Source of the DNA: Archaeoglobaceae archaeon
GTDB taxonomy: Archaea; Halobacteriota; Archaeoglobi; Archaeoglobales; Archaeoglobaceae
Direction of reading: 5' to 3'
Assembly (NCBI GenBank): GCA_025058735.1
Contig: JANXDX010000002.1
Span: forward strand, 1-37,692
Length of the DNA: 37,692 nucleotides
Below, one piece after another: positions 14,680 to 35,363 of the stretch; the stretch's first letter is position 1, and every line of letters starts with the position of its first letter. The translations under genes and the position numbers were made by a program. A model generated the notes under the pieces. That model had not been told where the DNA came from. It worked only from the letters and a program-made list of their open reading frames with translations, and ran no database searches.

Positions 14680-14695
14680 AAAATATTTATTCTTT
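14680..14695 (-). promoter_or_regulatory. TATA-like box of proS inside the end of cofC
   Basis: On the minus strand AATAAATATTTTG overlaps the cofC stop codon and lies ~25 nt before the proS ATG. There is no Shine-Dalgarno at proS, so a leaderless transcript is plausible. Based on spacing alone. Confidence 0.4.
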
Positions 14696-16290: not shown

Positions 16291-16298
16291 TATTTCTT

Positions 16299-16870: not shown

Positions 16871-16874
16871 AAGA

Positions 16875-17794: not shown

Positions 17795-17803
17795 CAAACC
17801 ACC

Positions 17804-17956: not shown

Positions 17957-17960
17957 AGGA

Positions 17961-18290: not shown

Positions 18291-18295
18291 CTCGA

Positions 18296-18739
18296 TCACC
18301 CATACTTCGCTAGTTCAGGCATCTTTTTTATCAATTCTTTCTTAACTTCGTTTGCAATCCTGTCTAAGAAAGATCTTCCGTAAGGTGTTAAAATTCTACC
18401 ATTTTTAGTTTTCTGTACAAATCCAAGTTGCTCAAGCTGATGGAGAGCATTTCTTATTATTGCTCCACTTCCTTTTCTGAAATGTGGTGGCTTAACTCCT
18501 CTCCTCTTCCTTCCACCGTAGAAAGTTCTTAGCCTTTCTATTCCAACAGGTCCATCTAAGTATATCCTTCTAAAAATCGATGCCAGCCTTAAATACCACC
18601 AATCTTTCTGTTCAGGAGACCTTTGCTTGTAAGTACCAGTTTTAACGTACTTAGCCCACTCAGGTGGTGCAACCATCTCTTTCAACTTATCTGCAACTTT
18701 CTGTATTAAAAGATCTGCAGGTACATCGTAAACGCTCAT
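18296..18739 (-). CDS. rps19e: Ribosomal protein S19e
   Basis: A small-subunit protein of archaea and eukaryotes, needed for 30S/40S maturation. It has 147 residues with the winged-helix core: [18 protein letters not shown], then [32 protein letters not shown] in pieces and [18 protein letters not shown], all typical. The ATG at 18739 is chosen because GAGGTGAT is six bases upstream; a start at 18754 would include that site. It follows the CRM protein closely. Confidence 0.96.
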
Positions 18740-18743
18740 TTTA

Positions 18744-18962
18744 TCACCTCTCAAACGTTAAAACAAACCCTCTGAAATCTACAAGTTTACCTTTAACCTT
18801 CGAAGCTATTTCCATTGCTAACTCTTTTTTTTCTTTCTCAGATATCCTTCTAAAGTTTTTCAACATTTTTACCTTCACTACTCCATGTTTCTCAAGCTGC
18901 AGATTTATCTCTTCTATCAAATTTTCTGTTATTCCTTTTTTCCCGACGTTGATCGTGATCAT
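18744..18962 (-). CDS. CRM (YhbY-like) RNA-binding protein
   Basis: A stand-alone CRM-domain protein (72 residues), the archaeal counterpart of bacterial YhbY, which associates with pre-50S ribosomes; plant relatives act in intron splicing. Seen: [27 protein letters not shown] (the position of the usual GxxG loop region is partly changed) and [12 protein letters not shown] as last strand. The ATG at 18962 is preferred over TTG 18983; GGGTAGG lies directly before it, though rather close. It is the first gene of the long leftward translation operon, with the promoter at ~19005-19020. Confidence 0.85.
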
Positions 18963-19000
18963 CCCTACCCGTGAACACTGCAACTAAAAAATTTAACTGA

Positions 19001-19058
19001 TTGATCTCTTATAAATTTATATTTATATAAAATTTTTTTATTGTTTTTATAAATTATT
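19001..19058. promoter_or_regulatory. Divergent promoters of the translation operon and rfcS
   Basis: A 60-bp A/T block. On the minus strand ATAAATTTATAAGAG (~19006-19020) can drive the CRM-S19e-...-CofC operon. On the plus strand TTTTTATAAATTA (19044-19056) can drive rfcS, placing its transcript start ~15-20 nt before the ATG at 19093. The two TATA-like boxes are only ~30 bp apart. Confidence 0.5.
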
Positions 19059-19092
19059 AAAACTTTTTATGCAAAACTCGCACAATCTTTCG

Positions 19093-20046
19093 ATGGAAGA
19101 ATTTGAAGTGTGGGTAGAGAAGTATCGTCCAAGGACTCTAGATGAAGTAGTTGGACAAGATGAAATTGTACAGAGACTAAAAGGATACGTTAGACAAAAA
19201 AACATACCCCATCTTCTCTTCTCAGGACCACCTGGAACTGGAAAGACTGCAACTGCTATAGCTTTGACGAGAGATCTATTCAGCGATGTCTGGAGAGACA
19301 ACTTCATAGAGCTGAATGCGAGCGATGAGAGGGGGATAGATGTAGTTAGAAGTAAGATAAAGGAGTTTGCTAGAACAGCACCGATCGGAGGTGTACCGTT
19401 TAAAATAATATTCTTAGATGAAGCAGATGCTTTGACAGCTGATGCCCAGGCAGCTTTAAGAAGAACTATGGAGATGTTTTCGAAGAGCTGCAGATTTATA
19501 CTGAGCTGCAACTACTTGAGCAGAATAATAGAGCCTATTCAATCTAGATGTGCAATCTTCAAGTTCCGTCCAATAGCTAGAGAAGCTATGAGGAAAAAAT
19601 TGCTAGAAATTTGTGAAAAAGAGAAAGTAAAGATCACAGAAGATGGCTTAGAAACTCTGATCCAAATATCTGGAGGAGATTTCAGAAAAGCTATAAACGC
19701 TTTACAAGGTGCTGCAGCTTCTGGAGAAGTTGTAGATGCTGAGGTTATATATCAAATAACTGCAACAGCAAGACCTGAAGAAATTGGAAAACTCATAGAG
19801 GTTGCTTTGAGCGGAAAGTTCATGGAAGCTAGAAGTATGCTTGAGAAGTTGATGGTTCACTACGGAATGAGTGGAGAAGATGTTGTGAACCAGCTCTTCA
19901 GAGAGATAGTTTCGATGAAGATCGATGAGAAGTTGAAAGTTCTACTTGTAGATAAACTTGGAGAAATAGACTTCAGGCTAACTGAAGGTGCAAACGAAAA
20001 AATCCAGCTGGAAGCTTATCTAGCTTTTCTAGCTTCTCTAAAGTGA
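19093..20046 (+). CDS. rfcS: Replication factor C small subunit
   Basis: The AAA+ clamp-loader subunit that loads PCNA onto DNA. It has 317 residues from the ATG at 19093, whose MEEFEVWVEKYRP is the standard archaeal opening; the frame from 19069 adds eight residues with no family match. Seen: GPPGTGKT at residues 45-52 (Walker A), LDEAD at 108-112 (Walker B), SCN sensor near 138-140 and SRC at 151-153 (arginine finger). No intein is present. The stop overlaps the tyw3 start by one base (TGATG). Confidence 0.96.
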   Translation: MEEFEVWVEKYRPRTLDEVVGQDEIVQRLKGYVRQKNIPHLLFSGPPGTGKTATAIALTRDLFSDVWRDNFIELNASDERGIDVVRSKIKEFARTAPIGGVPFKIIFLDEADALTADAQAALRRTMEMFSKSCRFILSCNYLSRIIEPIQSRCAIFKFRPIAREAMRKKLLEICEKEKVKITEDGLETLIQISGGDFRKAINALQGAAASGEVVDAEVIYQITATARPEEIGKLIEVALSGKFMEARSMLEKLMVHYGMSGEDVVNQLFREIVSMKIDEKLKVLLVDKLGEIDFRLTEGANEKIQLEAYLAFLASLK

Positions 20047-20615
20047 TGTGGAAGTTGAAAGAGGAGAAGTTAAAGATCTACGAGGAGGCAAAAAAGAGAA
20101 AAGAAGTTGACGAAGATCTATTAGAACTCCTAGATCTTATAAACAGCTTTCCAAACTACGTAACTCTTTCGAGCTGCAGTGGAAGAGTTGCCGTTTTAGA
20201 TCTTGAAAACTTTGGAGAGAAGTTTTCTGCAAAATTTTTAGGAAAATGGCACAGTTTTGTAAGCTTTGAAGAAGTTTTGAACTCTGCTAAGAGAAGTGAG
20301 AGAGTTGCCTGGTTGATCCAGTATCCCCCAATAATACACGTTGCTTGCAAAACTTTGAAAGATGCGAAAAATCTGCTGGAAATTGCGAACAACTCTGGAT
20401 TCAGGAGGAGTGGTATAATATCTTTGAAGAATTTTGTAGTTGAAATAGCTTCGTTTGAAAGGATCGAACTTCCAATAGCTTTCAAGGGAAAAATCTTAGT
20501 TGATGAGAATTATTTAAATTTTATAATAGATCTTGCTAATAGAAAACTTGAAAGAGGGAAGGAGAAGTTAAAGAGGCTTTATTCTAAACTTTCTCAAGTA
20601 GTAAATTCCTATTAG
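20046..20615 (+). CDS. tyw3: tRNA-Phe wybutosine-pathway methyltransferase Tyw3-like
   Basis: Tyw3 methylates N4 of the wyosine-type base at position 37 of tRNA-Phe, next to the anticodon. The 189-residue protein shows YVTLSSCSGRVAVLD (the conserved SSCSGR loop) near residues 37-51, then GKWHSF, QYPPIIHVACKTL and a later SGFRRSGIIS, all family marks. The start is the ATG sharing a base with the rfcS stop; a GTG one codon earlier is also possible. The 3' end overlaps the convergent DUF373 gene by 48 bp, an unusually long overlap. Archaea make several wyosine variants; which one is made here cannot be said. Confidence 0.88.
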   Translation: MWKLKEEKLKIYEEAKKRKEVDEDLLELLDLINSFPNYVTLSSCSGRVAVLDLENFGEKFSAKFLGKWHSFVSFEEVLNSAKRSERVAWLIQYPPIIHVACKTLKDAKNLLEIANNSGFRRSGIISLKNFVVEIASFERIELPIAFKGKILVDENYLNFIIDLANRKLERGKEKLKRLYSKLSQVVNSY

Positions 20616-21560
20616 AGCTATAGATATTGAAAGAATTATTGAAATTAAAAATTCTTCGATCTTTGCACTGATCAAAAAATTCGATGTGCTCCAGAGAATA
20701 ATTCCTGACGAACTCGTCAAGAAAAAAGTGGAAACATATTTTTTAAAATTTAAACCTTCAGCTATCGCATCAATAGCTCTAGCAAATATTATGAATATTG
20801 CAGACAAAATGATCCATGGAATGCTTGTCGCTACAAATTCAAGAGAACTTTTGGAGTTCAAACTTAGAGTTAGTCCAACGACTAAAAAAATTGCAGACAT
20901 TACATAAAAAACTGAAGATAATCTTCCCTCTACAACAGATCTTTTAACTGCTGAACCGTAAGCTTCAAGAACTCTTTCCAATCCATAAGCTTTTGCCAAA
21001 AAGTAAAGTCCAAGGAAAAGAATTATTGCTCCAAAACCGATCTCTGGCCTATAAAACATCAAAGATAAAGAATAGAATATCAGTATTATTCCTAGAGGAA
21101 CTAGAGTTGCCCTAGCTATTTTCGGTTCACTCATCATCTTCTTTATCAAAAAGTACGTACTCTCTATTGTCCTGCTTTGCTTAACAACAACTCTCTGAAC
21201 ACCGTCAACTTTGAAGCGAGAATATATGAGTGGTAGTATGAACTCATCCTCAGATCCATCTGTTACAACTAAAACGCTCTCTGGCTTTAAAGTTGAAGCG
21301 ATCTCATCTAACTGCCTTGCTATCTTTAGATCTGAAGAGATACCGACGTTTTTGTCTCCGCAAACGACTGCAACTTCAGCCCCTATCTTATCGCATAACT
21401 TTATACCTGCAAACATCGCATTCGGATCTGAGTCCTCTGGATCAGATATCGCAAGCTTCACTGCAGCATCTAAAACTTTCTCTCTACCAACTACAGGTGA
21501 TTCTATTCCAGTTTTCTCTCCAAGATCGTTGTCTCTGTCAATTACTAGAACTAACTTCAT
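20568..21560 (-). CDS. DUF373 family membrane protein
   Basis: An archaeal DUF373 protein, 330 residues, function unknown. The N-terminal ~145 residues are soluble: LVLVIDRDNDLGEKTGIESP at the start, an NAMFAGIKL helix, EVAVVCGD and VLVVTDGSEDEF. This resembles a Rossmann-like fold with Asp-rich loops. From ~150 on there are about six hydrophobic segments (for example IARATLVPLGIILIFYSLSL and IGFGAIILFLGLYFLAKAY) in an integral membrane domain. It is co-translated with the acyl-CoA dehydrogenase gene (ATGA at 21557-21560) and overlaps tyw3 tail-to-tail by 48 bp. Confidence 0.88.
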   Translation of the reverse strand: MKLVLVIDRDNDLGEKTGIESPVVGREKVLDAAVKLAISDPEDSDPNAMFAGIKLCDKIGAEVAVVCGDKNVGISSDLKIARQLDEIASTLKPESVLVVTDGSEDEFILPLIYSRFKVDGVQRVVVKQSRTIESTYFLIKKMMSEPKIARATLVPLGIILIFYSLSLMFYRPEIGFGAIILFLGLYFLAKAYGLERVLEAYGSAVKRSVVEGRLSSVFYVMSAIFLVVGLTLSLNSKSSLEFVATSIPWIILSAIFIIFARAIDAIAEGLNFKKYVSTFFLTSSSGIILWSTSNFLISAKIEEFLISIILSISIALIGIYYLRKFRIKPL

Positions 21561-22711
21561 GTTAGTTTACCCAAAACTTCCCTTGCTATAGTGTTCAGCT
21601 GTATTTCCTTTGTACCTTCGTATATTTCGGTTATCTTCACATCTCTATAAAACCTTTCAACTTCGTACTCAGTTATGTAACCGTATCCGCCGTGCAACTG
21701 TATAGCTTCATCGCAAATCTTGACTGCTATCTTTGCAGCGTAAAACTTAGCCATAGAAGTTAGAGCTGGATCTATCTTTCCCTGATCAAAGTTCCAAGCA
21801 GCTTTGTAAATTAACAACCTTGCAGCTTCAAGTTCTGTTCTCATTTCAGCAACTCTGTGCTGCAAAGCTTGAAAAGCACCTATTGGTACTCCAAACTGTT
21901 TTCTCTTTTTCAGATAATTTACGGTCCTATCAAAAGCTCCCTGTGCTATTCCTAAAGCTTGTGCAGCAATCTCTATTCTACTTTCATCAAAAAACTCCAA
22001 AACTTGATAGAAACCTCTATTTAGCTGTCCTATAACTGCTGAATCATCAACTCTAACGTTTTTGAAAACTATCTCTGCAGTTGGAGAAGATCTTATACCC
22101 ATCTTTCCCCCTATCTTTGTAACTTTTATTCCAGGATCGTCCTTTTTCAAAAGAAAAGTTGTAAAACCTCTGTACCTTGGCTTTGCTTCTTGATCTGTGA
22201 CTGCTAAAACTATGAAGTAATCTGCTATAGTTCCATTTGTTATGAACGTCTTAGTTCCATTTATCACCCACTCATCTCCATCTCTCAAAGCCAAAGTTCT
22301 TATAGCTGTCAAATCGCTTCCAGCTTCTGGCTCTGTATAGCAGCCTGCTGTTATCGAGTCGCCTCTTGCAACTCTAGGTAAAACTTCCTTTTTCTGCTCT
22401 TCACTTCCAAACCTTGCAACTACTTCAGAACTGAAATCTGCTAAGATTATTGCACTACCTATAGTGCTGTCTGCTCTACAAAATTCCTCAGCGATCAAAA
22501 CGTTTTCAAGACAACCCATTCCTCCTCCGCCGTACTGCTCTGGAAAATGTACACCTATGAATCCTAAACTAGCTGCTTTTTTGTGCAATTCAAAAGGAAA
22601 TTCTTCTTTTCTATCAAGTTCTTCCGCAATTTCTTTTTTGAATTCCTTCGATGCAAAATCCCAAGCAGCCCTCTTTATATCTTTTTGCTCCTGGGTCAAT
22701 TCGAAGTCCAT
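21557..22711 (-). CDS. Acyl-CoA dehydrogenase
   Basis: An FAD enzyme that puts the 2,3 double bond into acyl-CoA in fatty- or amino-acid breakdown. Its 384 residues are the normal length for short/medium-chain members. Seen: the start MDFELTQEQKDIKRAAWDFA, CYTEPEAGSDLTAIRT (FAD/substrate loop), WVINGTKTFITNG, RKQFGVPIGAFQALQHRVAEM in pieces, IQLHGGYGYITEY and YEGTKEIQ with catalytic E365. The substrate chain length is not certain. A TATA-like TTTAATATATG lies ~20-30 nt before the ATG. Beta-oxidation genes are typical of Archaeoglobales. Confidence 0.94.
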   Translation of the reverse strand: MDFELTQEQKDIKRAAWDFASKEFKKEIAEELDRKEEFPFELHKKAASLGFIGVHFPEQYGGGGMGCLENVLIAEEFCRADSTIGSAIILADFSSEVVARFGSEEQKKEVLPRVARGDSITAGCYTEPEAGSDLTAIRTLALRDGDEWVINGTKTFITNGTIADYFIVLAVTDQEAKPRYRGFTTFLLKKDDPGIKVTKIGGKMGIRSSPTAEIVFKNVRVDDSAVIGQLNRGFYQVLEFFDESRIEIAAQALGIAQGAFDRTVNYLKKRKQFGVPIGAFQALQHRVAEMRTELEAARLLIYKAAWNFDQGKIDPALTSMAKFYAAKIAVKICDEAIQLHGGYGYITEYEVERFYRDVKITEIYEGTKEIQLNTIAREVLGKLT

Positions 22712-23639: not shown

Positions 23640-25475
23640 TTATTTTTTTAATTTTTTTATTATAAATGCAAGAGCTGCAGACACTAAGCATGCTAAGATC
23701 TCGAAACCTGGAATTGCTTTACCTCTTTCGATCTCAACTATGGATTCAGCAAAACTATTACCTATTTCAGCCTTCACTTTCAAAAATCCAGGATCTTTTG
23801 CTTTTAGCACCAACTTAGCTTTCCCTTCGTTGTCTGTGAGTTTATCGCTGTAAACTATTTCAGCTAAACTGTTGTTTAGATACCATTTCAAGTGCAAGTT
23901 TTTAACTGCAAAAAGGTGTACTTCGAAAGTCTCATCTTTCTTGACTTTCAAGAACTTTGGTCTCAATTCAACTTCAACAGGTTTAGCGATAACTTTTCTT
24001 TCTGCAAAACTTGAATCGAAAAGAACTTTCAAGTTCAACTCTTTATCTTCAACGATCCATTCAATGCAAGTGTTACCTTCAGCTTCTTTTTCAACGTAGA
24101 AATCGTTTATGTAAAACTTCACCCTTCCACTCTTTTCTAGAACTGTACAAACTTTTATTTTTTGTCCAACGAATGGATCTTCTGGTTCAAGGTAAACAGG
24201 TAGTTGTTCTGATCTTTTTAAAACTTTAACAACTTTGATCCCATCGATCCTGAGCCCATCGATATCAACAGAACATCCAACGACATAATCTCCTTCCTTC
24301 TCAGGGATCCAAGGTAAGGTAAAAATTTTCTTTTCTCCAGCTTTCAACTCATCAACGAACATTTTTCTTAAAAGAATTTTTTCAACGTAGAAGCTTAAGT
24401 TGAAAGACGTTAAATTGGCTTTTCCGAAGTTTGAAACTTTTGCAATTATTTCAACCTCTTCTCCCTTGAAAGCCGTATCTGGAACTTCAAGCTCGAGGTC
24501 GATGTTTAGTTTAGAAGCTAGAACTTCGATGATCGCTGAAACTTGATTGTTCTCTTCATCACTCTCCTCCACAAAATCTTCCTCATCTGCAAAGATCGTA
24601 ACAAAGTACTTACCTTCTACCTTCGGTTTCCAGAGAAGAGTTAAAACTTTGATCTCTCCAACTTTCAACCTATCTACACTTAATTTTCTGGCTTCGCTGT
24701 TCAAGTGAAAAGTTACGTAAAATCTATCTATATCAGATCTTCCAGCGTTTAGCAACTCAACTTCGATCTTCACGTCTTGAAAAGTCTCAGGCATTTCAGG
24801 TTCAAACTTTAAGTTTCTAATTCTAATGTCTGGCTTCTCTTTTTGTTTCTCTTCTTTTGGCTTTTCTTCTACTGTTTTCTCCTTTTCTGGAATTCTATCA
24901 ACTACTTTTACTCTTAACTGCTTTGAATCAACCTCAACGAGCATTTCTCCGAAGGGAAGTTTTGAAGTGTCGTATTTAACTGTGTACTTGCCATTTTCAT
25001 CTAGTTTAATCTTAGCCCTAGCCTTAGCTTCTACGTTCACAACTTCACCTCTCGATGCTCCGTAGATTTTAACATCGAAGTTTCCTGCAAAAGGTACATC
25101 TACTCCGATCTTTGCAACTCCATCTACTGCACTTTCTTGCAATTTTCTAGAAAATATCCAAAGTCTAGCTTCTACAGTTAAATTTTCTACTGGCCAGGTT
25201 TTTATTTCAAAGTAAGCTTTCAGCGGAATTGGAAACTTATCTTGCGAGTAGAAATATTGATTGTTAGATGATGGAATTGAGAAATAATAATCAATCGAAA
25301 CTTGAAGCTCCTGCAAAGGACTGCTAAGCAAAGTTATTTCTGCAACTTCTCCTCTTGAAATGTAGTAGGTGTCTCCAATTAAAACTGCGTTAGTTGAAAC
25401 CTCTAAAGCCTCTACTAAATTTATTGAAAAAAGAAAAATAAAAATAATTTTAAAAATTGTTATCAGTTTTTTCAT
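23640..25475 (-). CDS. Secreted CARDB-repeat protein with PGF-CTERM archaeosortase signal
   Basis: A large surface protein, 611 residues. The N-terminus MKKLITIFKIIFIFLFSIN...VEA is a Sec signal peptide. After ~170 residues of beta-rich sequence comes a charged Lys/Glu/Pro linker (~195-220, EKTVEEKPKEEKQKEK), then two CARDB-type beta-sandwich repeats: ~220-310 (IEVELLNAGRSDIDRFYVTF ... ESDEENN) and ~320-410 (IIAKVSNFGKANLTSFNLSF). A third Ig-like part follows. The C-terminus has PGF at 589-591, a hydrophobic stretch and IIKKLKK. This is the PGF-CTERM arrangement recognised by archaeosortase A, which trims the tail and attaches a lipid. It is co-translated behind the gene at 25472 (ATGA). The ligand is unknown, and no archaeosortase gene is in the window. 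Confidence 0.85.
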   Translation of the reverse strand: MKKLITIFKIIFIFLFSINLVEALEVSTNAVLIGDTYYISRGEVAEITLLSSPLQELQVSIDYYFSIPSSNNQYFYSQDKFPIPLKAYFEIKTWPVENLTVEARLWIFSRKLQESAVDGVAKIGVDVPFAGNFDVKIYGASRGEVVNVEAKARAKIKLDENGKYTVKYDTSKLPFGEMLVEVDSKQLRVKVVDRIPEKEKTVEEKPKEEKQKEKPDIRIRNLKFEPEMPETFQDVKIEVELLNAGRSDIDRFYVTFHLNSEARKLSVDRLKVGEIKVLTLLWKPKVEGKYFVTIFADEEDFVEESDEENNQVSAIIEVLASKLNIDLELEVPDTAFKGEEVEIIAKVSNFGKANLTSFNLSFYVEKILLRKMFVDELKAGEKKIFTLPWIPEKEGDYVVGCSVDIDGLRIDGIKVVKVLKRSEQLPVYLEPEDPFVGQKIKVCTVLEKSGRVKFYINDFYVEKEAEGNTCIEWIVEDKELNLKVLFDSSFAERKVIAKPVEVELRPKFLKVKKDETFEVHLFAVKNLHLKWYLNNSLAEIVYSDKLTDNEGKAKLVLKAKDPGFLKVKAEIGNSFAESIVEIERGKAIPGFEILACLVSAALAFIIKKLKK

Positions 25476-27367
25476 CTTTTTCTCTTGATCAGATAGACTA
25501 TCAAGGCTAAAACTACGATTATTGCAACTACTGCTCCTCCTATCACTTCAACTCCAATCGGTGGCGGTACTGGAGTTGGAGTAGGTGTTGGAGGTATTGG
25601 AGTTGGAGTAGGAGTTGGGGTAGGTGTAGGAGTAGGTTTAGGAGCTTCCAAGACAACAGCGAAGTAACTAAAGCGTGGAACTTCAGCTCTATAGTAGTTG
25701 TACTTGTCATCTTTTCTGACAAATTCTGTTTTGAGCTCTATCCAACTCTTTCCATCAAACCTGAGCATTGTAGCAATAACGTTGTCAGGATCGAAACCTT
25801 TTTCTCTAATTTCATCTCTTTCAATGACAAAGTTTATGTAACCTTTAACATCGGTTTCCTTGCTAAGAATCAAATCCATTTTCATTAAAAGAGCAATAAC
25901 ACCGACTGGTGTCGGTATATTTGCTGGTACTTCTTTGAGTTTCTCGATCCTAATTCTTAAATTGACATCCTCTCGCGGTACTACAACAACTGAGACTACG
26001 TTCGTGTCTAAAACTACAGTCAGTGGCATTTTAACTTCATACTCTTCTTTGGCAACTACAACGTAGTAAGGAGTAAGATAAATTGGTATTCCTGGTAAAA
26101 CTGCTCCACCACCGATCCCGATACGTGGTACTGGTGTAGGAGTTGGAGTAATTGGAGGAACAATTGGAGGTGGAGTTATCGGAGGAACAATTGGAGGTTT
26201 GATTATATTTACACTAAGACTTCCAAAGTAAAGCGGATCAGCTTTTTCCTTTTCAAAAGCAACGATGTAAAGAATGTAATTTCCTAATTCTAGGCCTTTT
26301 GTTTCTAAAATTAACTCATCATCTTCAATCCCATAGTTGTAGCTGAACATATTTTTTGGAGCTTTTATTCCAAGCTCTCTGTCAAAAACTTTTATTTTTT
26401 CAATTTCTTTATTTTCATAATTTAATTTTATATCAAAAGCGTCAACTATCTTTTTCGTTAAGTTTACCTCTATTTCTGCATCGTATTTATCATCTTTTAA
26501 AAGAAGAGCAAACGCCATTCCAAACTCTTTTTTGAATTTTAGTACCAGATCTTCACCTTCAACGATTGTTGATTTGAATTCTGGTCTATTTTCTTTAGAT
26601 GTCCCATTCAAAACAAAAAATGGAACAGCAAGTTTAAAAATTGGATTTCTGTACTCATCTAAGCTAATAACTGTTAACATGTAGTAACCTGGAGAGAGTT
26701 TTCTTAGGTCTGGTGGAAGGCCACCTGGAAGACTATCGTTTATTCTAAAGTTTGACAGTTGAATCGAATTTATTTTGATGGTTTCGGTTATGTTTTTTCC
26801 CAGAATGAATTCATTTGTACTTTTTTTAATAACTTTGATTTTGTTTTCAGTTTCATTATAACTTACTTTAGCCCAACCAGTGTAGTTGAAAGCGTATCCG
26901 TACTCTGTCATTTCTAGAAGTTCTTCAAAAGTTATACCTTTCAGAAAATTTTCAATATTTTGTAAGTTTTCTAGAAAATCTTCAATATTAAGCTTTAGAA
27001 CTACTGGTAGTCCAAAACTATCTATTTTAATCAAAACGTCCAAACTAGAGTTTATGTCGTAAATTATGGAAGTGTCAGGAAAACTTTTTAAAGTGGTGTT
27101 AGTTATCCCAGTTGTTTGAATCGTATAATGTGCTTTACTTCCTGGAATCAATTTTCTATCGAGTTCATCTAAAGGTATAGGAAAACTGCTAGCTCCGTAG
27201 AATTTAAATTTAACGAAGCTTTCATTATAAAAATCCCAAAAGCAAATTTTTGTAACGTTTATTTCTATGACTTCTTTAGGAAGATCTCTTGTTGCACAAA
27301 AAAACTCTTCTGCTGAGCAGGAATATATAGCAAAAAGACCCAAGAGAAGTAGCAATAAGATCCGCAT
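25472..27367 (-). CDS. Secreted PGF-pre-PGF-like protein with Thr-Pro linkers
   Basis: A 631-residue exported protein: signal peptide MRILLLLLLGLFAIYSCSA, then a long Asn-rich ectodomain with many N-x-S/T sites (NVT, NES, NTT, NGT). Around residues 385-410 and 575-600 there are Thr-Pro/Pro-rich linkers (PTPTPTPTP). Between them lies a domain resembling the PGF-pre-PGF module: VNLRIRIEKLKEVPANIP, ETDVKGYINFVIERDEI, NVIATMLRFDGKSWIEL and VPRFSYFAVV. The C-terminus VIGGAVVAIIVVLALIVYLIKRKR (in two pieces) is a transmembrane anchor without a PGF tripeptide. Such modules sit near archaeosortase targets on S-layer-type proteins. It is first in a two-gene operon with the PGF-CTERM protein. A role in the cell envelope is inferred. 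Confidence 0.78.
   Translation of the reverse strand: MRILLLLLLGLFAIYSCSAEEFFCATRDLPKEVIEINVTKICFWDFYNESFVKFKFYGASSFPIPLDELDRKLIPGSKAHYTIQTTGITNTTLKSFPDTSIIYDINSSLDVLIKIDSFGLPVVLKLNIEDFLENLQNIENFLKGITFEELLEMTEYGYAFNYTGWAKVSYNETENKIKVIKKSTNEFILGKNITETIKINSIQLSNFRINDSLPGGLPPDLRKLSPGYYMLTVISLDEYRNPIFKLAVPFFVLNGTSKENRPEFKSTIVEGEDLVLKFKKEFGMAFALLLKDDKYDAEIEVNLTKKIVDAFDIKLNYENKEIEKIKVFDRELGIKAPKNMFSYNYGIEDDELILETKGLELGNYILYIVAFEKEKADPLYFGSLSVNIIKPPIVPPITPPPIVPPITPTPTPVPRIGIGGGAVLPGIPIYLTPYYVVVAKEEYEVKMPLTVVLDTNVVSVVVVPREDVNLRIRIEKLKEVPANIPTPVGVIALLMKMDLILSKETDVKGYINFVIERDEIREKGFDPDNVIATMLRFDGKSWIELKTEFVRKDDKYNYYRAEVPRFSYFAVVLEAPKPTPTPTPTPTPTPIPPTPTPTPVPPPIGVEVIGGAVVAIIVVLALIVYLIKRKR
25555..25645. 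repeat. Short GT/GA-rich repeat encoding the Thr-Pro linker
   Basis: On the plus strand GTTGGAGTAGG-type units repeat about every 6 or 12 bp, encoding the Thr-Pro-Thr-Pro stretch before the membrane anchor of the gene at 25472. A second, shorter tract at ~26120-26200 encodes the PPIVPPITPP linker. Such tracts are prone to slippage and length change. Confidence 0.75.
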
Positions 27368-28048
27368 AGAATATCAAGGTTTTCAAAGTTTATAAATTTT
27401 TTGTTGTTAGTAGGTAACTTTAAACAAAAAAGGATGCGTAAACGTAGCTAAAAAATTAAAATTACCTGAGTTACAGCTAAAGTAGTTTATACGTAGACTA
27501 AAGATGAAAACTGAGAAAAGTACGTTAAGAAAAACAACAGTATTTTCTCTATTCTTTCTAAATAAAAAATACAAGAAAAAATTAGAATAAAAAATTATTT
27601 TAAAAAATAAAAATATAAAAAATTTTTTTTAAGTGTTAAAAGATTTTCACAGCTTTTTTAACATTAGTACTCTTCAAGCAAAAGATCGTAGAGAAGAGAA
27701 CAGATGAAGTTAACAAATATCTTTGAGAGAGTTTGCGACTCAAAAAGTGAATAAGAGGAGTATTTCCAAGAAAACCTCAAAACTTAAAGATAATAGAAGA
27801 GCAAAAAGATAGACCTAGAAAGTATTGTCAAAACCATCGACTGATCAAACCGTCATTACCACAATTTGTTAAATTTCTTTGTAGAATAAAACTAATTTTA
27901 AAGAGAAATCTAACTTCTTCCTCATCTCCATACTCGCATCAAAAACGATGTAAAAATCTCCTTCCCATTCTTTCAAAATTAACTATAAGCTCTCTAAACC
28001 TTGCAGAGTTGTTACCTAATATAAATAATAAATAATATAAAAAGAAAT
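27368..28048. other. Gene-poor, AT-rich part of the island, including a DUF58 fragment copy
   Basis: About 680 bp without an intact gene between the secreted-protein operon and the acylphosphatase fusion. 27540-27660 is almost pure A/T. 27660-27860 has no open frame of note. 27888-28007 is a diverged copy of part of the DUF58 gene (listed separately). No RNA gene or complete mobile element was recognised. Confidence 0.6.
27888..28007 (-). pseudogene. Broken 120-bp copy of the DUF58 gene's MIDAS region
   Basis: This stretch matches 31178-31302, inside the intact DUF58 gene, in the same orientation. By eye the alignment shows four substitutions and one 5-nt gap over ~120 bp. The gap (AAAATTAACT here, AAAAATTCTTTAACT there) shifts the frame, so no protein can be made. 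The source piece encodes residues ~188-229, the SAR...FDASREM segment of the DUF58 vWA-like domain. The closeness of the match says the copy is fairly recent or was corrected by gene conversion. Confidence 0.88.
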
Positions 28049-28726
28049 TTACATAAGCCCCGCTCTTCTTAAAGCATCTTCTATCCTAGAAATCCTTGCG
28101 TTCAATTCTTTCATGTTTGATTCTAAATAATTCCTGAAATCGGAGCGAAGAAGTTCGAGTTTTGTATTCATTTCTTCTAGTTTTTCTGAAATGGGCTCTA
28201 TCTTCCTTCCCAACTCCTCCCTAGTCATTTCTATCTTCTTTCCAAGTTCTTCTCTCGTTAAATCTATCTTCCTTCCCAACTCCTCCCTAGTCATTTCTAT
28301 CTTCTTTCCAAGTTCTTCTCTCGTTAAATCTATCTTCCTTCCCAAATCTTCTCTCGTCTCTTCCAACTTCTGGATCATCAAATCCTGTTTTTCAACCATG
28401 TTTAGCATTATTGGAATAGCTTTTCCCCAGTGTTCCATTTGAAAAGCTTGCATACATCTCTCTATCGGAGGAACTACATAATGATATTCTTCAACTTCTA
28501 TCGCTTCTACAATCGCTTTTTCTGGCTTTTCTACTTTTATTCTTTCCTTAAAAACTTCAAGAACTTCTTTTGGTGCATCTATTAAAACGAGAACAGACTC
28601 TTTATTGTTTGAAAATGTGTTAAAAACGGCAAATCTCTCAATTCCATATTCCAAAGCGATGTTTATCAACTTAACTCTATAGCCAACTCCGTGTACTTTT
28701 CCTTTAATAGTTATCTTTAAGGCCAC
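28049..28726 (-). CDS. Acylphosphatase-domain protein fused to an 11-residue-repeat coiled coil
   Basis: A 225-residue two-part protein. Residues 1-~82 are an acylphosphatase-like domain: GKVHGVGYR with R17 and VFN with N36, the two residues acylphosphatases use, although the usual DG after the Asn is replaced by TFSNNKES. A middle helix (~88-120) has FQMEHWGKAIPIMLNMVEKQ. Residues ~122-180 are repeats of 11 residues (REELGRKIDLT / REELGKKIEMT), followed by a further coil to the end. The DNA carries two exact 66-bp copies and part of a third. Hendecad repeats favour long, right-handed or straight coiled coils. The product probably forms oligomers, and its target is unknown. It is the only intact gene in a decaying island, with a TATA-like stretch ~28740-28755 upstream. 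Confidence 0.78.
   Translation of the reverse strand: MALKITIKGKVHGVGYRVKLINIALEYGIERFAVFNTFSNNKESVLVLIDAPKEVLEVFKERIKVEKPEKAIVEAIEVEEYHYVVPPIERCMQAFQMEHWGKAIPIMLNMVEKQDLMIQKLEETREDLGRKIDLTREELGKKIEMTREELGRKIDLTREELGKKIEMTREELGRKIEPISEKLEEMNTKLELLRSDFRNYLESNMKELNARISRIEDALRRAGLM
28198..28350 (-). repeat. Tandem 66-bp repeats inside the acylphosphatase-coiled-coil gene
   Basis: 28198-28263 and 28264-28329 are identical 66-bp units, and 28330-28350 begins a third that drifts after ~16 bp. Each unit is two 33-bp halves, each encoding an 11-residue coiled-coil repeat (LGRKIDLTREE and LGKKIEMTREE). Exact identity including silent positions points to recent expansion. Confidence 0.95.
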
Positions 28727-30154
28727 AAAAACATTTTACATCTTATTTTATAAATTTTTCTGTTTCATTTTCAAGGAATTTGAGATAGCCTGATTCAATT
28801 TTTATATAATTTTATAAAATTTTAATTTTTAATAATTATCTTTAATATAAGTTGCCACTTAAATTGTTTATAGGTGTCATTAACTGGGAAGTTGGATAAA
28901 ATCTAAAAGTGAAGCAAGATTTGACAATTCTTAAATTCTATCTATTTTTATCAACTTTTTCCGTAATCTAATTTTCAAGCTCCTTTGTTTTCCCACATCT
29001 CCTCTAACTTTATTTTCATCCTGTTTTGAAGTATCTGCTTTTCTAAGCATTGTAAGATTAGAATCGTTAGAACGGTTGGCGTAGAAAGATTAACTGAAAG
29101 CGAGTAAAACGTCTTCTAAGGAATTTAATAATTAAGAATTATTTATATCCTAAAAACCAGAGGAGCAATTTGGATAGACGAAAAAATTAGAGCTAAATTA
29201 AAGGCCGTTTCAATGTTGGTTGCAGGTGATATGAAGATAGTTTTTTTGTTGATCAAAAGATTTGCTTACAGGATCTTGCTTCAATTTAGATTGCAATTTC
29301 GCATCCTACAATTTAGAAGTTTTAACAGTGAAAAATATCAAAGAATTTAATATGTTTTCAAATGGAATAAAGAGCAACAAGTGCGGAAGTATTTAAGGTT
29401 TTTTGAGAGAGACAAATTCGAACAAGAGATAACTATCTTCAAACCTAAGAATACTGAGTTGGAGATCATGCGTTTAAACGTGGTTTCAAAGGTGTTGAGT
29501 TGAAAAAGGTATAATCACTCGAGCTATAACAAATAATAAATTTTTAGGCTTAAAACTGTTCTTAGATTCTGTTCTGGAAAAGTTTAAGCATAAGGATTTG
29601 AGCATAGCATTCAAAGAAGTTATAGATTTTAGGTTGAAAGCGGGCTTTTGGAATAGAAACAGCCCCTCTTACATGTGACCTTTAGAAACTTGTGAAGAAA
29701 AGAGAAGTAATTGCTAGAAGGATAGGTATTGAGGAGAATTAGCTGTTGTAAGTGAAGAGAATCGATACCACAATAGATCCTATGAAACGTTAACGATGAT
29801 TGATGAAAGTGAAAAAGTGTTAGAATTTTCATAAAAATGAGATTAAAACGATTCAAGTAAAAACTTCAACAACGTGTGACAACAAAATAGAACTATCTTC
29901 AAGCCTTTTAGATTAAGTGGTTCCCTAAAAATTTTTATAGAGCAGATAGTGTATGCACAGAATTGATCAACTTGCTCAGCTGCACGATAAAGTTCTGAAA
30001 CGAGCAAAGTTTGCGCATAATCAAAAAAATTTGGTTTGAAGTTTTTCAGATCGAGGAGTTGAATCGCTATCTCTCAAAGATTTCAAACGATTTTGCATTT
30101 GAAAGCTTTTGATCTTTTTTATTTCCATTCTCTAAGTGCAATACGATCTTCAAG
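28727..30154. other. Gene-poor decaying region
   Basis: About 1.4 kb without an intact gene. 28727-28870 is very A/T-rich with TATA-like boxes. 28900-29130 has only short open frames. 29132-29678 looks like a broken gene (separate entry). 29690-30120 holds further short open pieces on the plus strand, for example KLVKKREVIARRIGIEEN near 29690-29740 and MHRIDQLAQLHDKVLKRA near 29953-30006, all cut by stops. No family could be named, and no inverted-repeat ends or target duplications were found by eye. Confidence 0.55.
29132..29678 (+). pseudogene. Likely broken gene of unknown family
   Basis: One plus-strand frame is open from 29132 to 29350 (72 codons, stop TAA), continues in the same frame from 29351 to 29503 (50 codons, stop TGA), and the frame one base over is open from 29499 to 29678 (59 codons). 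Protein-like pieces include IWIDEKIRAKLKAVSMLV, RKYLRFFERDKFEQEITIF and KHKDLSIAFKEVIDFRLKAG. This pattern, an in-frame stop plus a frameshift, suggests a former gene of ~180 codons. I could not assign it; a transposase or an antitoxin-type regulator are possibilities without support. Confidence 0.4.
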
Positions 30155-30679
30155 CTATCTTTTAATTTTTCCAATCCAGAAAAAGCATATGAAAGCTGTT
30201 ATCGAAGAGATCACAACTGCTTGACTTGCAGTACTTCCAAGATGATTTATCTGTTGACTGAAAATAAGAAAAATTGAAAAGAGGAAAAATGGAAGAAGAG
30301 AAACGAGTACTCCTTTTTTCGGTTTTTCTTGATAAAATCTGTATAAAAGTGATACGATCAAAATTGAAAGCATAAATTCGATGGAGAAGAATCCAAGGAT
30401 AGTCGTAACTGCAAGAAAGTGATCTTTCATCTCAATCCTCTTGACGTTCAGCCCCTCTTCAAGTAGTAAGATCGTTGCAAATATTACAGCCAACTTCTGA
30501 ATTTCCAGTTTGTAAAAGTCCTCAGCTAAAAATTCATAGCTCAAGAACATAGAATAAAAGAGAAAAGAGTACAAAAAAACGTCTTTTCTCCAATAGCTGA
30601 TTAAATATAAAAGTGGTGCAAAAAACAAAGTCTTTGCGAAAAGTACTGCGAGAACTAGTGATGCGATTGCAGAGATCAA
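30155..30679 (-). CDS. Small multi-pass membrane protein at the end of the MoxR/DUF58 operon
   Basis: A 174-residue integral membrane protein with about five hydrophobic segments: ISAIASLVLAVLFAKTLFFA, FLYSFLFYSMFLSYEF, KLAVIFATILLLEEG, FSIEFMLSILIVSLLYRF, VLVSLLPFFLFSIFLIFSQ and a last AVVISSITAFICFFWIGKI. No family recognised. It starts with TTG overlapping the DUF58 stop (30676-30679), with AAGGTGAG upstream, so it is co-translated with DUF58 and likely part of the same membrane complex. It marks the border to the decaying island. Confidence 0.75.
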   Translation of the reverse strand: MISAIASLVLAVLFAKTLFFAPLLYLISYWRKDVFLYSFLFYSMFLSYEFLAEDFYKLEIQKLAVIFATILLLEEGLNVKRIEMKDHFLAVTTILGFFSIEFMLSILIVSLLYRFYQEKPKKGVLVSLLPFFLFSIFLIFSQQINHLGSTASQAVVISSITAFICFFWIGKIKR

Positions 30680-31863
30680 GTTCTCACCTTGAAAAGATCG
30701 TCCCCAGGCCCAACGTCGATCGTTGGAACTACTGAGTTGATCTTTCTTATCAACTCCTCCCTCTCAACGTAAGCTCTGTAAAGCTTTAAAACAACGTCCT
30801 TTGTCAAAACTCCTCTGTAAAATAGAACTGGATTTGGAGAAATCAAAAATACTTTACATTCCTTTTTAACCTCAAGGATAACTCTCAAAAGCTCATCTGG
30901 ATTTGAAAGGTCTGAGATGAAAATTAGGAAAGATTTCCTCGGAATTTTTTTGATCAGATCTAGAGAAGTCGTTGGCATTTTTTTCAAAAAACTCCTTAGA
31001 AGTTTAGAAACAACTAGCTTTGGAACCTTTAAACTCAACTCAGCTTTTGTAGGATTTATCTTTAGTTCGCTTTTTATCTGTGAAAAATCTTCGCTAGCTT
31101 TCACAAACCTCTTGACTCCAAACTCATCGTAAACAACAAGCCCAACTCTCTTTCCCTTCAAAGAATTCAGCAACAGAAAAACTAATTTTAAAGAGAAATC
31201 TAACTTCTTCCTCATCTCCCTACTCGCATCAAAAACGATGTAAAAATCTCCCTCCCATTCTTTCAAAAATTCTTTAACTATAAGCTCTCCAAGCCTTGCA
31301 GATGCTTTCCATTCTATTTTTTTTGCATCATCACCGAATACAAATTTTCTCAGAGAATGGAAATCTGTTTCGATTCCAAAAACAGATCTATGAGGAGCTC
31401 CGATCTTGGTTTTTTCCTTGATAGCTTCAACAGACGGCAAAACTTCAACTTCAACTTCGGGAATTCTGAGCTTTTTTTCAAAAATTTCTCTTGAATCGAA
31501 AATTTCTAAAGATCCTTTTATCCTGTAAACTCCTTTTAAAGGAATTAAACTGTATTCAAAAGATTTTTCTCCAGGTTCAGAGAGAAATTCAACTTTTTCG
31601 CTGAAACTAGGTTCTTCAAGAAGTTTTATTTTGTAAACTTTCCTAGTAAAGTTCTTAACTTTTAGCTTAGCTGAAGTCCTCTTACCTTCGTAAAGAACTC
31701 TTTCAACTTCTCTGTAAGCTTCAATCTTTGGTTCAAATTCAAGGTAAACGTAAAAAACGTAAGTTGCAATTGAAAAAGCTAAAAGTGCTGGAAAAATATT
31801 TTGGAGAAGATATGATTGAGCGCAGAGGAAAAATATTGTCAAAGCTAAGATCTTTGCATTCAT
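30676..31863 (-). CDS. DUF58 domain protein (vWA-like), membrane-anchored
   Basis: A 395-residue DUF58 protein, the usual partner of MoxR ATPases. Two N-terminal hydrophobic segments (residues ~5-42) anchor it, and a beta-rich region follows. The DUF58 signature reads LRKFVFGDDAKKIEWKASAR (residues ~171-190), followed by LIVKEF and a vWA-like metal site FDASREM at ~208-214. A later FLIFISDLSNPDELL corresponds to the second metal-site loop. MoxR/DUF58 pairs are thought to help assemble or insert metals into other proteins, often at the membrane; the client here is unknown. The start overlaps the MoxR stop by ATGA. A broken copy of residues ~188-229 lies at 27888-28007. Confidence 0.9.
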   Translation of the reverse strand: MNAKILALTIFFLCAQSYLLQNIFPALLAFSIATYVFYVYLEFEPKIEAYREVERVLYEGKRTSAKLKVKNFTRKVYKIKLLEEPSFSEKVEFLSEPGEKSFEYSLIPLKGVYRIKGSLEIFDSREIFEKKLRIPEVEVEVLPSVEAIKEKTKIGAPHRSVFGIETDFHSLRKFVFGDDAKKIEWKASARLGELIVKEFLKEWEGDFYIVFDASREMRKKLDFSLKLVFLLLNSLKGKRVGLVVYDEFGVKRFVKASEDFSQIKSELKINPTKAELSLKVPKLVVSKLLRSFLKKMPTTSLDLIKKIPRKSFLIFISDLSNPDELLRVILEVKKECKVFLISPNPVLFYRGVLTKDVVLKLYRAYVEREELIRKINSVVPTIDVGPGDDLFKVRT

Positions 31864-32750
31864 TTTGGAACCTCTACCTTCTTCAAAACATCCATCACAA
31901 CTTCTTCACCTTTCAAATCAATCTCGTACTCAGGTTTCAAAATTATCCTGTGAGATAAAACAAAGTTTGCAAGGTACTTAACGTCGTCTGGTAAAACGTA
32001 ACTCCTACCTCTAAGAAATGCGAGAGATTTAGATGCTAGTAGTAGATGTTCCATAGCTCTAGGACTTGCTCCAAGCAAAACTCTCTCGTCTAGCCTTGTT
32101 TCATAACATATCCTATGTATGTAATTCAAAATCTTTTCAGAAACAGTAACTTTTACTTCTTTAAAATCAAAATCAACTTTTTCAACTTCTTCAAATTCTT
32201 TCAAAGATTTCCTCCTCAAGAACTCGATCTCCTTAAATGGATCGAGGTACTCCAACTTTATCCTAAGCATGAACCTATCTATCTGCGCCTCCGGTAGCTT
32301 GTAAACTCCCTCAGTTTCAACTGGGTTCATTGTTGCAAGGACGATGAAAGGTTCTGGAAGTTTATAAGTAATACCTTCAACGGTAACTTGTCTTTCCTGC
32401 ATAGCTTCGAGAAGAGCAGATTGAGTTTTTGGCATAGCTCTGTTTATTTCATCTGCAAGTACAACGTTTGCAAATATTGGACCTTTTTTGAACTTGAAAT
32501 CGGAAACTCTTTGATCGAAGTAGTAAGTTCCAATTATATCAGCTGGCATCAGATCTGGAGTAAGCTGGATCCTTGAAAATTCCAAACCAAGAGCCTTTGC
32601 AAAAGATTTAGCAATAGTAGTCTTTGCAATTCCAGGAACTCCTTCAAGCAGTACATGTCCCCTTGAAAGCAAAGCTACAGCTAGCAGTTCTACAACTTCT
32701 TCATAACCAACAACAGCTTTACTTATTTCTTTTTTCAACTTCTCCAGCAT
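31860..32750 (-). CDS. MoxR-family AAA+ ATPase
   Basis: A 296-residue MoxR ATPase. Seen: GVPGIAKTT at residues 37-45 (Walker A; MoxR proteins have GxPGxAKT), LTPDLMPADIIG at 63-74, VVLADEINRA at 96-105 (Walker B), ALLEAMQERQVT at 112-123, VLATMNPVETEGVYKLPEAQ in pieces (sensor 1 and following loop) and DRFMLRI (arginine finger area). It acts as a chaperone-like ATPase with DUF58/vWA partners. The start ATG is preceded by GAGGATG and lies 32 bp inside the end of the DUF4350 gene, an extended overlap typical of strong coupling. Confidence 0.95.
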   Translation of the reverse strand: MLEKLKKEISKAVVGYEEVVELLAVALLSRGHVLLEGVPGIAKTTIAKSFAKALGLEFSRIQLTPDLMPADIIGTYYFDQRVSDFKFKKGPIFANVVLADEINRAMPKTQSALLEAMQERQVTVEGITYKLPEPFIVLATMNPVETEGVYKLPEAQIDRFMLRIKLEYLDPFKEIEFLRRKSLKEFEEVEKVDFDFKEVKVTVSEKILNYIHRICYETRLDERVLLGASPRAMEHLLLASKSLAFLRGRSYVLPDDVKYLANFVLSHRIILKPEYEIDLKGEEVVMDVLKKVEVPK

Positions 32751-33693
32751 AATTCATCCTCCTGAGCATCTCTTCAAGCTTTTCCTTTTCAAGTGGAAGA
32801 TCTTCGAGAGATAACTTGGAGGGAAAGATTTTTTCAAAAAACCTCAAAATTTTTGTGAGGCTAGATAGATAAGGAGATAAGAGGGAAAATGCTGCAACAA
32901 ACAGCAAAACTAAAAAAGCCGAATCTCTGTTTAGATCTCTTTGTATGTAAACAGTTGCAACTGAGTAGGGATTCAAATCAGCTCTGTGAGCTTCATCGAA
33001 GTAGAAAGTTCCGCTTCCAAGTAGATCGATCAGGTTCAATGCAAATTGTCTGTTTTGATCTATCATTTCGTTCATCAAAGAGCTAGGATCTGAAAAGAGG
33101 ATGATCTTTCCATTTCCATAATCTAGCTCCGCAAGTATTGTATAAGATCTCATTTCTTCAACGAAGGAAGCTTTGCTAGTTTTTACATCTCCTTCAACGC
33201 CAAGGATCGCTGAGGGTACGTTGAGTTTAATTTTCTCCAAACCTCTTGAAATCTCTCCATCGATCCTTACAACAAAAGGAAAATTTTCGTTTTTATCGTA
33301 AAATATGTCTCTAATTTTTCCAGAAAACCTTGCCTTAACACCTAATTTTTCTAGTAAAGAATTAGAAAGTCCTGAATCGTCTGCAATAAAAACAGTTCCT
33401 CCTTTTTCTAAGAAAGCCTTGATCTCTTCAACTTCAGCTAAAGAGAAATCCAAGTTCGGAGATACTATGAGCAGAACTCCCTCCTTTTCACTTAGCTTAA
33501 TTGAGTTGTATGGGTACAGAATTGGAACAACTTTTCTCTTTTCTAAGCAAAGTTTTGCAAATTCAGATAACCCATTCCAATCTGTATTGAAGATGCTGAG
33601 ATCTGCTGAACTTTTTATTAAAGGGATGGCTATGGGTAAAATTAAGAGGGCTGTACCGAATAGGATCATGAAAGCGTAGACGGTTGGGTTCAT
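32719..33693 (-). CDS. DUF4350-type membrane protein
   Basis: A 324-residue protein with one N-terminal membrane helix (VYAFMILFGTALLILPIAIP), an extracytoplasmic alpha/beta domain and a C-terminal helix (SAFLVLLFVAAFSLLSPYL). The middle shows VLLIVSPNLDFSLAEVEEIK, FLEKGGTVFIADDSGLSNSL, KIILFSDPSSLMN and FYFDEAHR, the DUF4350 / GldG-like pattern. Such proteins accompany MoxR, DUF58 and DUF4129 proteins in bacteria and archaea. It is co-translated after the gene at 33690 (ATGA). Substrate or client unknown. Confidence 0.83.
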   Translation of the reverse strand: MNPTVYAFMILFGTALLILPIAIPLIKSSADLSIFNTDWNGLSEFAKLCLEKRKVVPILYPYNSIKLSEKEGVLLIVSPNLDFSLAEVEEIKAFLEKGGTVFIADDSGLSNSLLEKLGVKARFSGKIRDIFYDKNENFPFVVRIDGEISRGLEKIKLNVPSAILGVEGDVKTSKASFVEEMRSYTILAELDYGNGKIILFSDPSSLMNEMIDQNRQFALNLIDLLGSGTFYFDEAHRADLNPYSVATVYIQRDLNRDSAFLVLLFVAAFSLLSPYLSSLTKILRFFEKIFPSKLSLEDLPLEKEKLEEMLRRMNYAGEVEKRNK

Positions 33694-35363
33694 GAAAGAA
33701 ATTCTTTTGCAAGCTTAAAGAATTTTTCCAGCTCAGCTTCAGTTAAAGTTTCAAGTGCATAAGCAGATCTTTCATGGATCTCCGTTATCTCCTTCAGCTT
33801 TTCTGCAAATCTTTCTCCTTTAAGTTCAGCCAGAAGTTCTCTAGGAGTAAGGCTTTTAGATAAGTTGTAATTTGAAACAAGTTTCTTGAAGATCTCTGAA
33901 TAAACTTCGCTGACATCTCTAATCTCTTTCTTATCATTCAAATCTTTTTTCTCTTCCAACTCTTCCTCCTTCACTTCAACTTCTTCAATTTTTTCATATT
34001 TCTTTTTAAATATACTATTTTTTATTTTTTTTGTAAAATAAATTAAAGTTAGCATAGCTAGAGGTAAAACTATGAAAGGAACAAAGTTGAATCCTTCAAC
34101 GTAAACAGTTATTTCGTTGGATTTCGAAGCTTTTCTTAAATGATCTCCTTCGAAGTAAGCGTAGATCTTGTAAGTTCCAGGTTTCAAGTTCAAGGAGAAA
34201 TTTTTATTTCTTCCATAAAAATTTAATTCTTTTATATTATTTATGAAAACATCTATTTTTAAATCCTCACTTGCCTCAACGTAGATTTCAACTTTTTCCC
34301 ATTCAAAAAATCTTTCCTTCTCAGTTATTATCTTTATCCAAGTTGGATAGCGAGAAAAATGAACAGTTGTATTTGCAAAAGCTTTTTCATGTGTCTCATT
34401 TCCTTCGTAAAAAACAAAGATCGGAACAGAGCATTCGTAATCTCTTCTAATGCTAAAACTGAAATAACCTTCTCTCGACTCTAACTCAAAATCGTTGACT
34501 CTTATCGAAACACTCAAAGCTTCGCCGTAGTGATCGAAGATGAAACCTTCAACTCTAGCAAATTTACCAACGAACGCGGAGTAAGCTTTTAAGTGTATGT
34601 AAACTGGTATCTTTTCAACGAAGATCTTTACAACGTTGGACCTTAATATCTCACCACCCCTCGATCCTTCAGCGTATACTACGTGCTCTCCGTACGTTGA
34701 GAAAGTGTAGCTCATGTTCCTAGCTTCAAAGACCTTCTCATCTATGAAGAGTCTTAAAGGTTTGACGTTCTTAGCATAGATCCATATCCAAACTTCTTCA
34801 AAAAGGTAAACTTCTGTCTTCGAAACAAAAACCCAGATCCCTTCATCAAGTTCAAAGCCTTCATCAATGTACTCTTCGTAGAGATTCAAAGTTGATTCGA
34901 GTTTAGCTAAAGCTTCTCTAAGATCTGATGTGTTGAAAAAGAGTGGAGTAGTTCCGTTGTAGTAAACTATTTTCTCTATCTCATCTACCAAAAATTTCAT
35001 CTCAGATAAGCTCTTCTTCATCCTGAAAATGCTCGATCTCTCAGATCTTAGAACATCGTTTGCTTTGCAGAGATCTTCAAGTTCAACTGCAAAAGATAGA
35101 AAAGGGTCTATTGCCAAAGTTGCGTTTGTACTTATCCCCTTTGCTCCGTAAAAACCTATTTCAGCTTTAACTGTCTCAAGTTCCTTCGAAAAAGATCTGC
35201 AGCTTTCTCCTTTACTAGCTTTGATGATCTCTTCAGAAAACTTTTCTATGAAGCTGGAGTAGAAATCGTAGATCCACTGATCGCTTTCAAAAGTTTCCGA
35301 GTACTTGACGTGACTAGCTTCTGCAGAAAAAATAATTATCAACAATACAAACAACTTCTTCAC
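33690..35363 (-). CDS. Exported protein with Ig-like ectodomain and DUF4129-like C-terminal
   Basis: A 557-residue membrane protein leading the MoxR/DUF58 operon. It has a signal peptide (MKKLFVLLIIIFSAEA), a ~150-residue helical part (LEDLCKANDVLRSERSSIFR), several beta-sandwich segments (IWIYAKNVKPLRLFID, VYIHLKAYSAFVG, WEKVEIYVEASEDLKI) and one membrane helix (FVPFIVLPLAMLTLIYF, ~residues 435-455). An acidic, Lys/Glu-rich cytoplasmic stretch follows. The last ~75 residues (LSKSLTPRELLAEL ... HERSAYALETLTEAELEKF) resemble the DUF4129 tail found in transglutaminase-like partners of MoxR. GTG at 35363 is the start. Domain naming beyond the tail is tentative. Confidence 0.75.
   Translation of the reverse strand: MKKLFVLLIIIFSAEASHVKYSETFESDQWIYDFYSSFIEKFSEEIIKASKGESCRSFSKELETVKAEIGFYGAKGISTNATLAIDPFLSFAVELEDLCKANDVLRSERSSIFRMKKSLSEMKFLVDEIEKIVYYNGTTPLFFNTSDLREALAKLESTLNLYEEYIDEGFELDEGIWVFVSKTEVYLFEEVWIWIYAKNVKPLRLFIDEKVFEARNMSYTFSTYGEHVVYAEGSRGGEILRSNVVKIFVEKIPVYIHLKAYSAFVGKFARVEGFIFDHYGEALSVSIRVNDFELESREGYFSFSIRRDYECSVPIFVFYEGNETHEKAFANTTVHFSRYPTWIKIITEKERFFEWEKVEIYVEASEDLKIDVFINNIKELNFYGRNKNFSLNLKPGTYKIYAYFEGDHLRKASKSNEITVYVEGFNFVPFIVLPLAMLTLIYFTKKIKNSIFKKKYEKIEEVEVKEEELEEKKDLNDKKEIRDVSEVYSEIFKKLVSNYNLSKSLTPRELLAELKGERFAEKLKEITEIHERSAYALETLTEAELEKFFKLAKEFLS

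Follow-up and report, generated by a model that had tools for sequence, protein, structure and literature searches.

An acylphosphatase head on a predicted coiled coil built from DNA repeats: a widespread archaeal family with head-tail shuffling and apparent movement of single genes

The window analysed here is a whole stretch of 37,692 nucleotides from an Archaeoglobaceae archaeon (GenBank assembly GCA_025058735.1, contig JANXDX010000002.1, positions 1 to 37,692 of the forward strand). On its minus strand, at 28049..28726, lies an intact ORF with a GTG start that encodes a protein of 225 aa. All of its parts are given here as read on the minus strand. The acylphosphatase head (residues 1-84, 28475..28726) was delimited using Pfam, AF2, Foldseek and alignment, has the order beta-alpha-beta-beta-alpha-beta, and includes the codons for R17 (28676-28678) and N36 (28619-28621), which were located in the family alignment. 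It is followed by a linker that starts a long helix ('VVPPIERCMQAFQMEHWGKAIPIMLNMVEKQD..', residues 85-118, 28373..28474; AF2 helix 88-221 and alignment), by a variable hendecad coil (residues 119-177, 28196..28372; hydrophobic periodicity and Tandem Repeats Finder, TRF) and by a conserved C-terminal tail (residues 178-225, 28052..28195; alignment and tail search).

No gene could be recognised within approximately 1.4 kb on the upstream side of this ORF and 0.7 kb on the downstream side, and four short ORFs scanned in these flanks had no Pfam match. A duplicate fragment of a DUF58 gene (31178-31302) was found just 3' of the acylphosphatase-coil gene, at 27888..28007 (minus strand, 93-98% identity). 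The earlier note had described the gene as the only intact one in a decaying island; the empty flanks and the DUF58 fragment agree with that description, which holds in part only. Upstream, 30155-35363 (minus strand) holds a row of genes for a MoxR ATPase, DUF58, DUF4350 and DUF4129-like proteins, the last below the cut-off. On the other side, 23640-27367 (minus strand) encodes a pair of large proteins that look secreted; CARDB domains are present in one, and the other has a TPT-rich linker whose coding DNA consists of short tandem repeats. Neither tRNAs nor Rfam matches at gathering scores were found in the window.

Residues 4-83 match the Pfam family Acylphosphatase (PF00708) with E=2.7e-9, over the gathering score. 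The AF2 model of the single chain (mean pLDDT 90.9, pTM 0.51) consists of the head and one helix, residues 88-221, and in a Foldseek search of the PDB the best match was HypF (3vti), followed by acylphosphatases, with target TM-scores of up to 0.80. An acylphosphatase fold is thus predicted by AF2 and Foldseek, and the P-loop Arg and the Asn are both present. In an alignment of the family profile to solved acylphosphatases, R17 and N36 fall on an Arg and an Asn of 1ulr, N36 being preceded by one residue more than in 1ulr. We take the equivalents of R17 and N36 to be the catalytic pair of acylphosphatases. In sequence and predicted fold the head is an acylphosphatase, as the earlier note had proposed, and it has probably retained catalysis.

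VQG is the usual acylphosphatase motif and is also visible in the alignment here. The window protein resembles acylphosphatases (PF00708; 1ulr, 1w2i, 9sv1) in fold, P-loop Arg and Asn, but differs in the helix of approximately 134 residues that follows the head, in the H that replaces the Q of VQG in window-type heads, and in the extra residue before the Asn. Family members are presumably annotated in databases as plain 'acylphosphatase'. The N-terminal domain of HypF (3vth, 1gxu) is likewise an acylphosphatase-like domain inside a longer protein. However, HypF is described as continuing with zinc-finger-like, YrdC-like and Kae1-like domains (PMC6022934), for which the 225-aa window protein has no Pfam match, and the window protein scored 23.7 bits against TIGR00143, for which the cut-off is 466.1, and is not classed as HypF.

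TRF reported a period of 66 bp at 28197-28345, with 2.3 copies, 100% matches and a partial third unit, and also a period of 33 bp with 4.9 copies and 73% matches. The two complete units (28197..28262 and 28263..28328, minus strand; TRF and self-comparison) are identical, and each encodes 22 aa, or two hendecads. The hydrophobicity of the window coil has its maximum at 98.4 degrees per residue, where 11/3 corresponds to 98.2. When residues 122-177 are taken alone, the maximum lies at 97.8 degrees, and 16 of 2000 shuffles attained it. An 11-residue periodicity lying within a long helix is what characterises a hendecad coiled coil, and the earlier note's account of a hendecad coil encoded by identical 66-bp units was borne out. 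The coils of three relatives (L011, L055 and L051) are heptad coils with peaks at 102.6-103.0 degrees, so the family changes repeat type. Because AF2 modelled one chain (pTM 0.51), the coiled coil is deduced from periodicity; the rod is probably a dimeric or trimeric coiled coil that sets the spacing of the heads.

A unit of 22 residues and 66 bp would also suit an apolipoprotein-like, lipid-binding amphipathic helix instead of a coiled coil. When the whole protein is compared by sequence with the PDB, apolipoprotein A-IV comes first, and PF01442 matches with E=5.7e-8. However, this match to PF01442 (A1/A4/E) scored 33.1 bits, well short of the cut-off of 90, PF01442 matches only 4 of the 28 aligned members, and the heptad coils of the three relatives argue in the same direction. 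We consider a lipid-binding helix highly improbable and retain the coiled coil.

A profile of the head (A2, 118 positions) was searched against 392 genomes of the window's phylum. At E<=1e-6, 127 genomes contained a match, with HypF and plain acylphosphatases among them; at E<=1e-20 there were 70 (counted by hand), made up of 26 from the window's own family (f1), 26 from f7, 11 from f21, 3 from f13, 2 from f9 and 1 each from f6 and f31. A second phylum, to which a Methanodesulfokora MAG belongs, had matches at E<=1e-12 in 19 of 29 genomes. Judged by these matches, the combination of acylphosphatase head and coil is found commonly across at least two phyla of archaea. The earlier note had seen it as a lone novelty, which no longer holds, and a SelD-like fusion and a Borg acylphosphatase with repeats are already in print (PMC4210487, PMC9879509). 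The hosts named for a set of 15 loci include Archaeoglobaceae, Methanolliviera, Methanoperedens, ANME and Methanosarcinales MAGs.

PF00708 matches all 28 aligned members. Only ORFs in which the profile match starts at position 6 or earlier and reaches position 100 were included in the head comparison, and shorter pieces were left out. Among the 49 distinct head-bearing ORFs that remained, G9 and H12 are invariant (49/49), and R17 and N36 are each present in 48, the exceptions being an R to H change in a truncated copy and an N to S change in a copy at a contig end. The earlier note had staked its reading partly on a conserved R and N in homologues, and at the level of sequence such conservation is present. 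Several genomes carry more than one family copy. In the array L146, one window-type head is accompanied by three canonical acylphosphatase heads, with rod and tail very similar in all. These three genes, and one in L026, have rods and tails like those of their window-type neighbours or relatives, but their heads are of the VQRVGYR...VEN type. The ends of contigs C9 and C29 of genome G000 (L003 and L005/L008) have 141 identical bases in common where a family copy has its 5' end, as if the assembly had broken on near-identical family copies. The window gene is ordinary within its family, and the interest lies in how the family shuffles and moves, both of which go beyond the earlier reading. An open-access literature search gave no account of the family, its shuffling or its mobility among the matches listed.

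The nearest relative found, in G005 (contig L038/L064 of a 78%-complete MAG), belongs to another species, is 94% identical in protein, and lacks exactly one 22-aa (66-bp) unit relative to the window copy. Complete family ORFs (42 of the 49 distinct ORFs stop within their locus) range from 112 to 290 aa, and the shortest of them are without most of the coil. These data support a coil length that is currently changing by whole repeat units, as the earlier note had supposed from the identical repeats and as the comparison of repeat number with G005 now bears out.

The DNA shared by the window and G005 copies is confined to 28049-28785, that is, from -59 to the stop codon, with nothing homologous outside. 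It includes a common upstream stretch (28727..28785, minus strand; DNA comparison) with a putative TATA-like element, ATTTATAAAA, at 28746-28755. BLAST returned 94.6% identity over 523 bp and 91.4% over 257 bp, the two pieces meeting at the repeat; as a single alignment of 737 columns, identity is 85.6% if the 66-bp gap is counted and approximately 94% if it is not. The flanking genes of the two copies differ, and core genes at 13253-22711 share 69-70% identity with G005 in all five G005 segments longer than 1 kb. As the promoter-to-stop block is approximately 94% identical versus 69-70% for the core, recent movement of a single gene is indicated. Misbinning of the G005 contig was considered and judged unlikely, because a homologous gene on the same contig, likely an orthologue, shares only 50% protein identity with that in the window.

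Other pairs show the same pattern. G020a and G020b, found in one genome in unrelated surroundings, are 98.4% identical from -40 to +21 only, and G007a and G009a, also in unrelated surroundings, are 87% identical from -97 to +10. The surroundings of G020a are common to G027 from -250 to +414, which suggests that G020b arose later. The DNA upstream of G007a matches that of G007c and G009b as far as -186 and then departs, and G007a carries a piece from the start of the gene that lies upstream of G007c and G009b; G007a is a copy with a ragged left end. The pairs G025a/G025b, G007c/G009b, G003/G007b and G024/L040 have flanking blocks in common as well, and look like duplicated or inherited regions. 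Each of the G025 copies (L061 and L062) is flanked by genes for a MoxR-like ATPase on one side and a VWA-partner-like protein on the other (by eye), and the two sites look like one duplicated operon. In L069 and L070 (G007 and G003), the copies are followed by pilin-like genes that have a 34-residue stretch in common and by a gene for a membrane protein that is alike in the two loci (by eye).

Near-identical copies of a single gene at unrelated sites in one genome (G020a/G020b) could also be explained if the gene travelled on a non-autonomous transposable element that relies on a transposase supplied in trans. By eye, an integrase-like gene (L053:1950-2993) lies 87 nt from G014a and the G014 array of family copies, and a TnpB-like gene lies close to the L156 copy. 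However, the left end of homology differs from pair to pair (-40, -59, -97 and -186), G007a bears a ragged piece of a neighbouring gene, and neither terminal inverted repeats nor common target sites were seen by eye in the flanks. A clean empty site was not found; G030 has the flanks of G020b with another gene between them. Variable left ends and flanks in which no terminal repeats were seen favour recombination or duplication over a classical transposon, to which we assign quite a low probability. The ragged ends point to copying by ordinary recombination or duplication rather than as a defined element.

Heads and tails have not stayed together. In 37 full copies, the identity of heads is only weakly correlated with that of tails (r=0.34, or 0.40 after dropping pairs whose tails align over fewer than 25 positions, which are otherwise scored 0). 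G009a and G009b, from the same genome, have heads that are 99% identical and tails that are 34% identical, and their DNA similarity ends at approximately codon 128, within the coil; one of the G009 copies has a tail 81% identical and a head 41% identical to those of G005. Separate trees were built for heads and for tails, each from 20 sequences, on 112 and 47 columns respectively. The head tree groups G009a, G009b and G007c (support 89/79, not starred), and this clade is rejected by the tails with p-AU 1.7e-4, while the heads reject G009a joined to the window group without G002 with p-AU 6e-33; these values are not blind, because the clades were named after the identities had been seen, and the tails offer only 47 columns. 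The tails do not reject G009a in the window group (p 0.16), yet the tail tree as drawn is without that placement. The identities within G009 and the conflict between the head and tail trees indicate that heads and tails shuffle. In a tail search of 55 family genomes, 22 had a match, and the matches inspected, G285:C146 (103 aa) not among them, were acylphosphatase-head ORFs or short or broken pieces, with no tail on another kind of head. The sole clearly different head that bears such a tail is a canonical acylphosphatase (L026).

The dN/dS value for the window and G005 copies is 0.119. In 11 pairs, head values range from 0.02 to 0.22 in the 10 for which there is a value, the heads being identical in one pair. 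A single high value was obtained for tails, 0.676 for G003/G007b, and G007b is frame-broken there. The low values fit a working protein. Broken copies were also found (G007b, G014c and G000c).

Patchy occurrence, multiple copies, horizontal movement and the presence of broken copies would suit a role in conflict, defensive or toxin-antitoxin-like, in which the head has lost its metabolic role and acts on an acyl-phosphate or mixed-anhydride signal, which it binds or destroys, and an arms race drives the shuffling of rods and tails. The L071 and L053 copies lie near PIN-toxin-like genes, and the latter also near a nucleotidyltransferase-like gene (names assigned by eye). Several observations make a role in conflict unlikely. 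Head dN/dS is low, and no relatives were found in viral, plasmid and phage collections. Among 34 copies, no recurring neighbour or partner gene was seen (by eye, using the first 45 residues of each neighbour), apart from pairs whose surroundings match and from the gene piece common to G007a and G007c. Twelve PADLOC families match the window protein, all of them only in the helix (residues 99-221), and look like coiled-coil cross-hits; assignment to a defence system was rejected for this reason. Assignment by PHROGs, where 10 weak matches were all within the helix, was also rejected.

The nearest printed cases found are the SelD-like/acylphosphatase fusion of Thermoproteales (PMC4210487) and a Red Borg acylphosphatase, subfam0779, which is listed with a 7-residue KLVEGQN tandem repeat (PMC9879509). 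The first is another archaeal acylphosphatase fusion, but its partner is an enzyme and the description in that paper mentions no coil (PMC4210487). The second, compared by description only, likewise combines PF00708 with a tandem repeat that is young and in frame, and its context is also archaeal, but it is carried on a Borg, and the title of that paper casts such repeats as disordered regions (PMC9879509). On the question of a Borg or other extrachromosomal origin, the window holds housekeeping-like genes too (by eye).

We hold, with moderate confidence, that the window gene encodes an accessory archaeal protein of head, rod and tail, in which a predicted active acylphosphatase is held in oligomers on a coil of adjustable length, and whose family evolves by unit change, head-tail recombination and single-gene copying. 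The head would be an acylphosphatase that is still catalytic, the rod a hendecad coiled coil (heptad in several relatives) that would oligomerise and space the heads, and the tail, a second conserved helix, a putative docking end. Whole repeat units would be gained and lost in the rod, recombination would pair different heads with different tails, with the junction inside the rod for the case examined, and the gene may be copied singly, promoter included, to new sites, between species too. The earlier suggestion of a scaffold or tethered small-molecule phosphatase is plausible as a putative role. More tentatively, such proteins may be combinatorial adaptor enzymes in archaea, single-gene cassettes that would spread between species with no mobility genes of their own, with the coil as a recombination hinge pairing heads, docking tails and spacings.

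Acetyl phosphate is among the candidate substrates of acylphosphatases. Carbamoyl phosphate and 1,3-bisphosphoglycerate are further candidates, and the biological function of acylphosphatase has been described as still unknown (PMC4210487). A widespread archaeal form in which the active site is carried on an adjustable rod would give a concrete handle on that function. If the docking view holds, one would expect a partner for the tail, and the same head with a different tail in one genome amounts to a natural domain-swap experiment. The family further suggests that a repeat within a protein-coding gene can serve as a hinge for recombination, and that a single gene passed recently from one archaeon to another with no mobility genes in sight.
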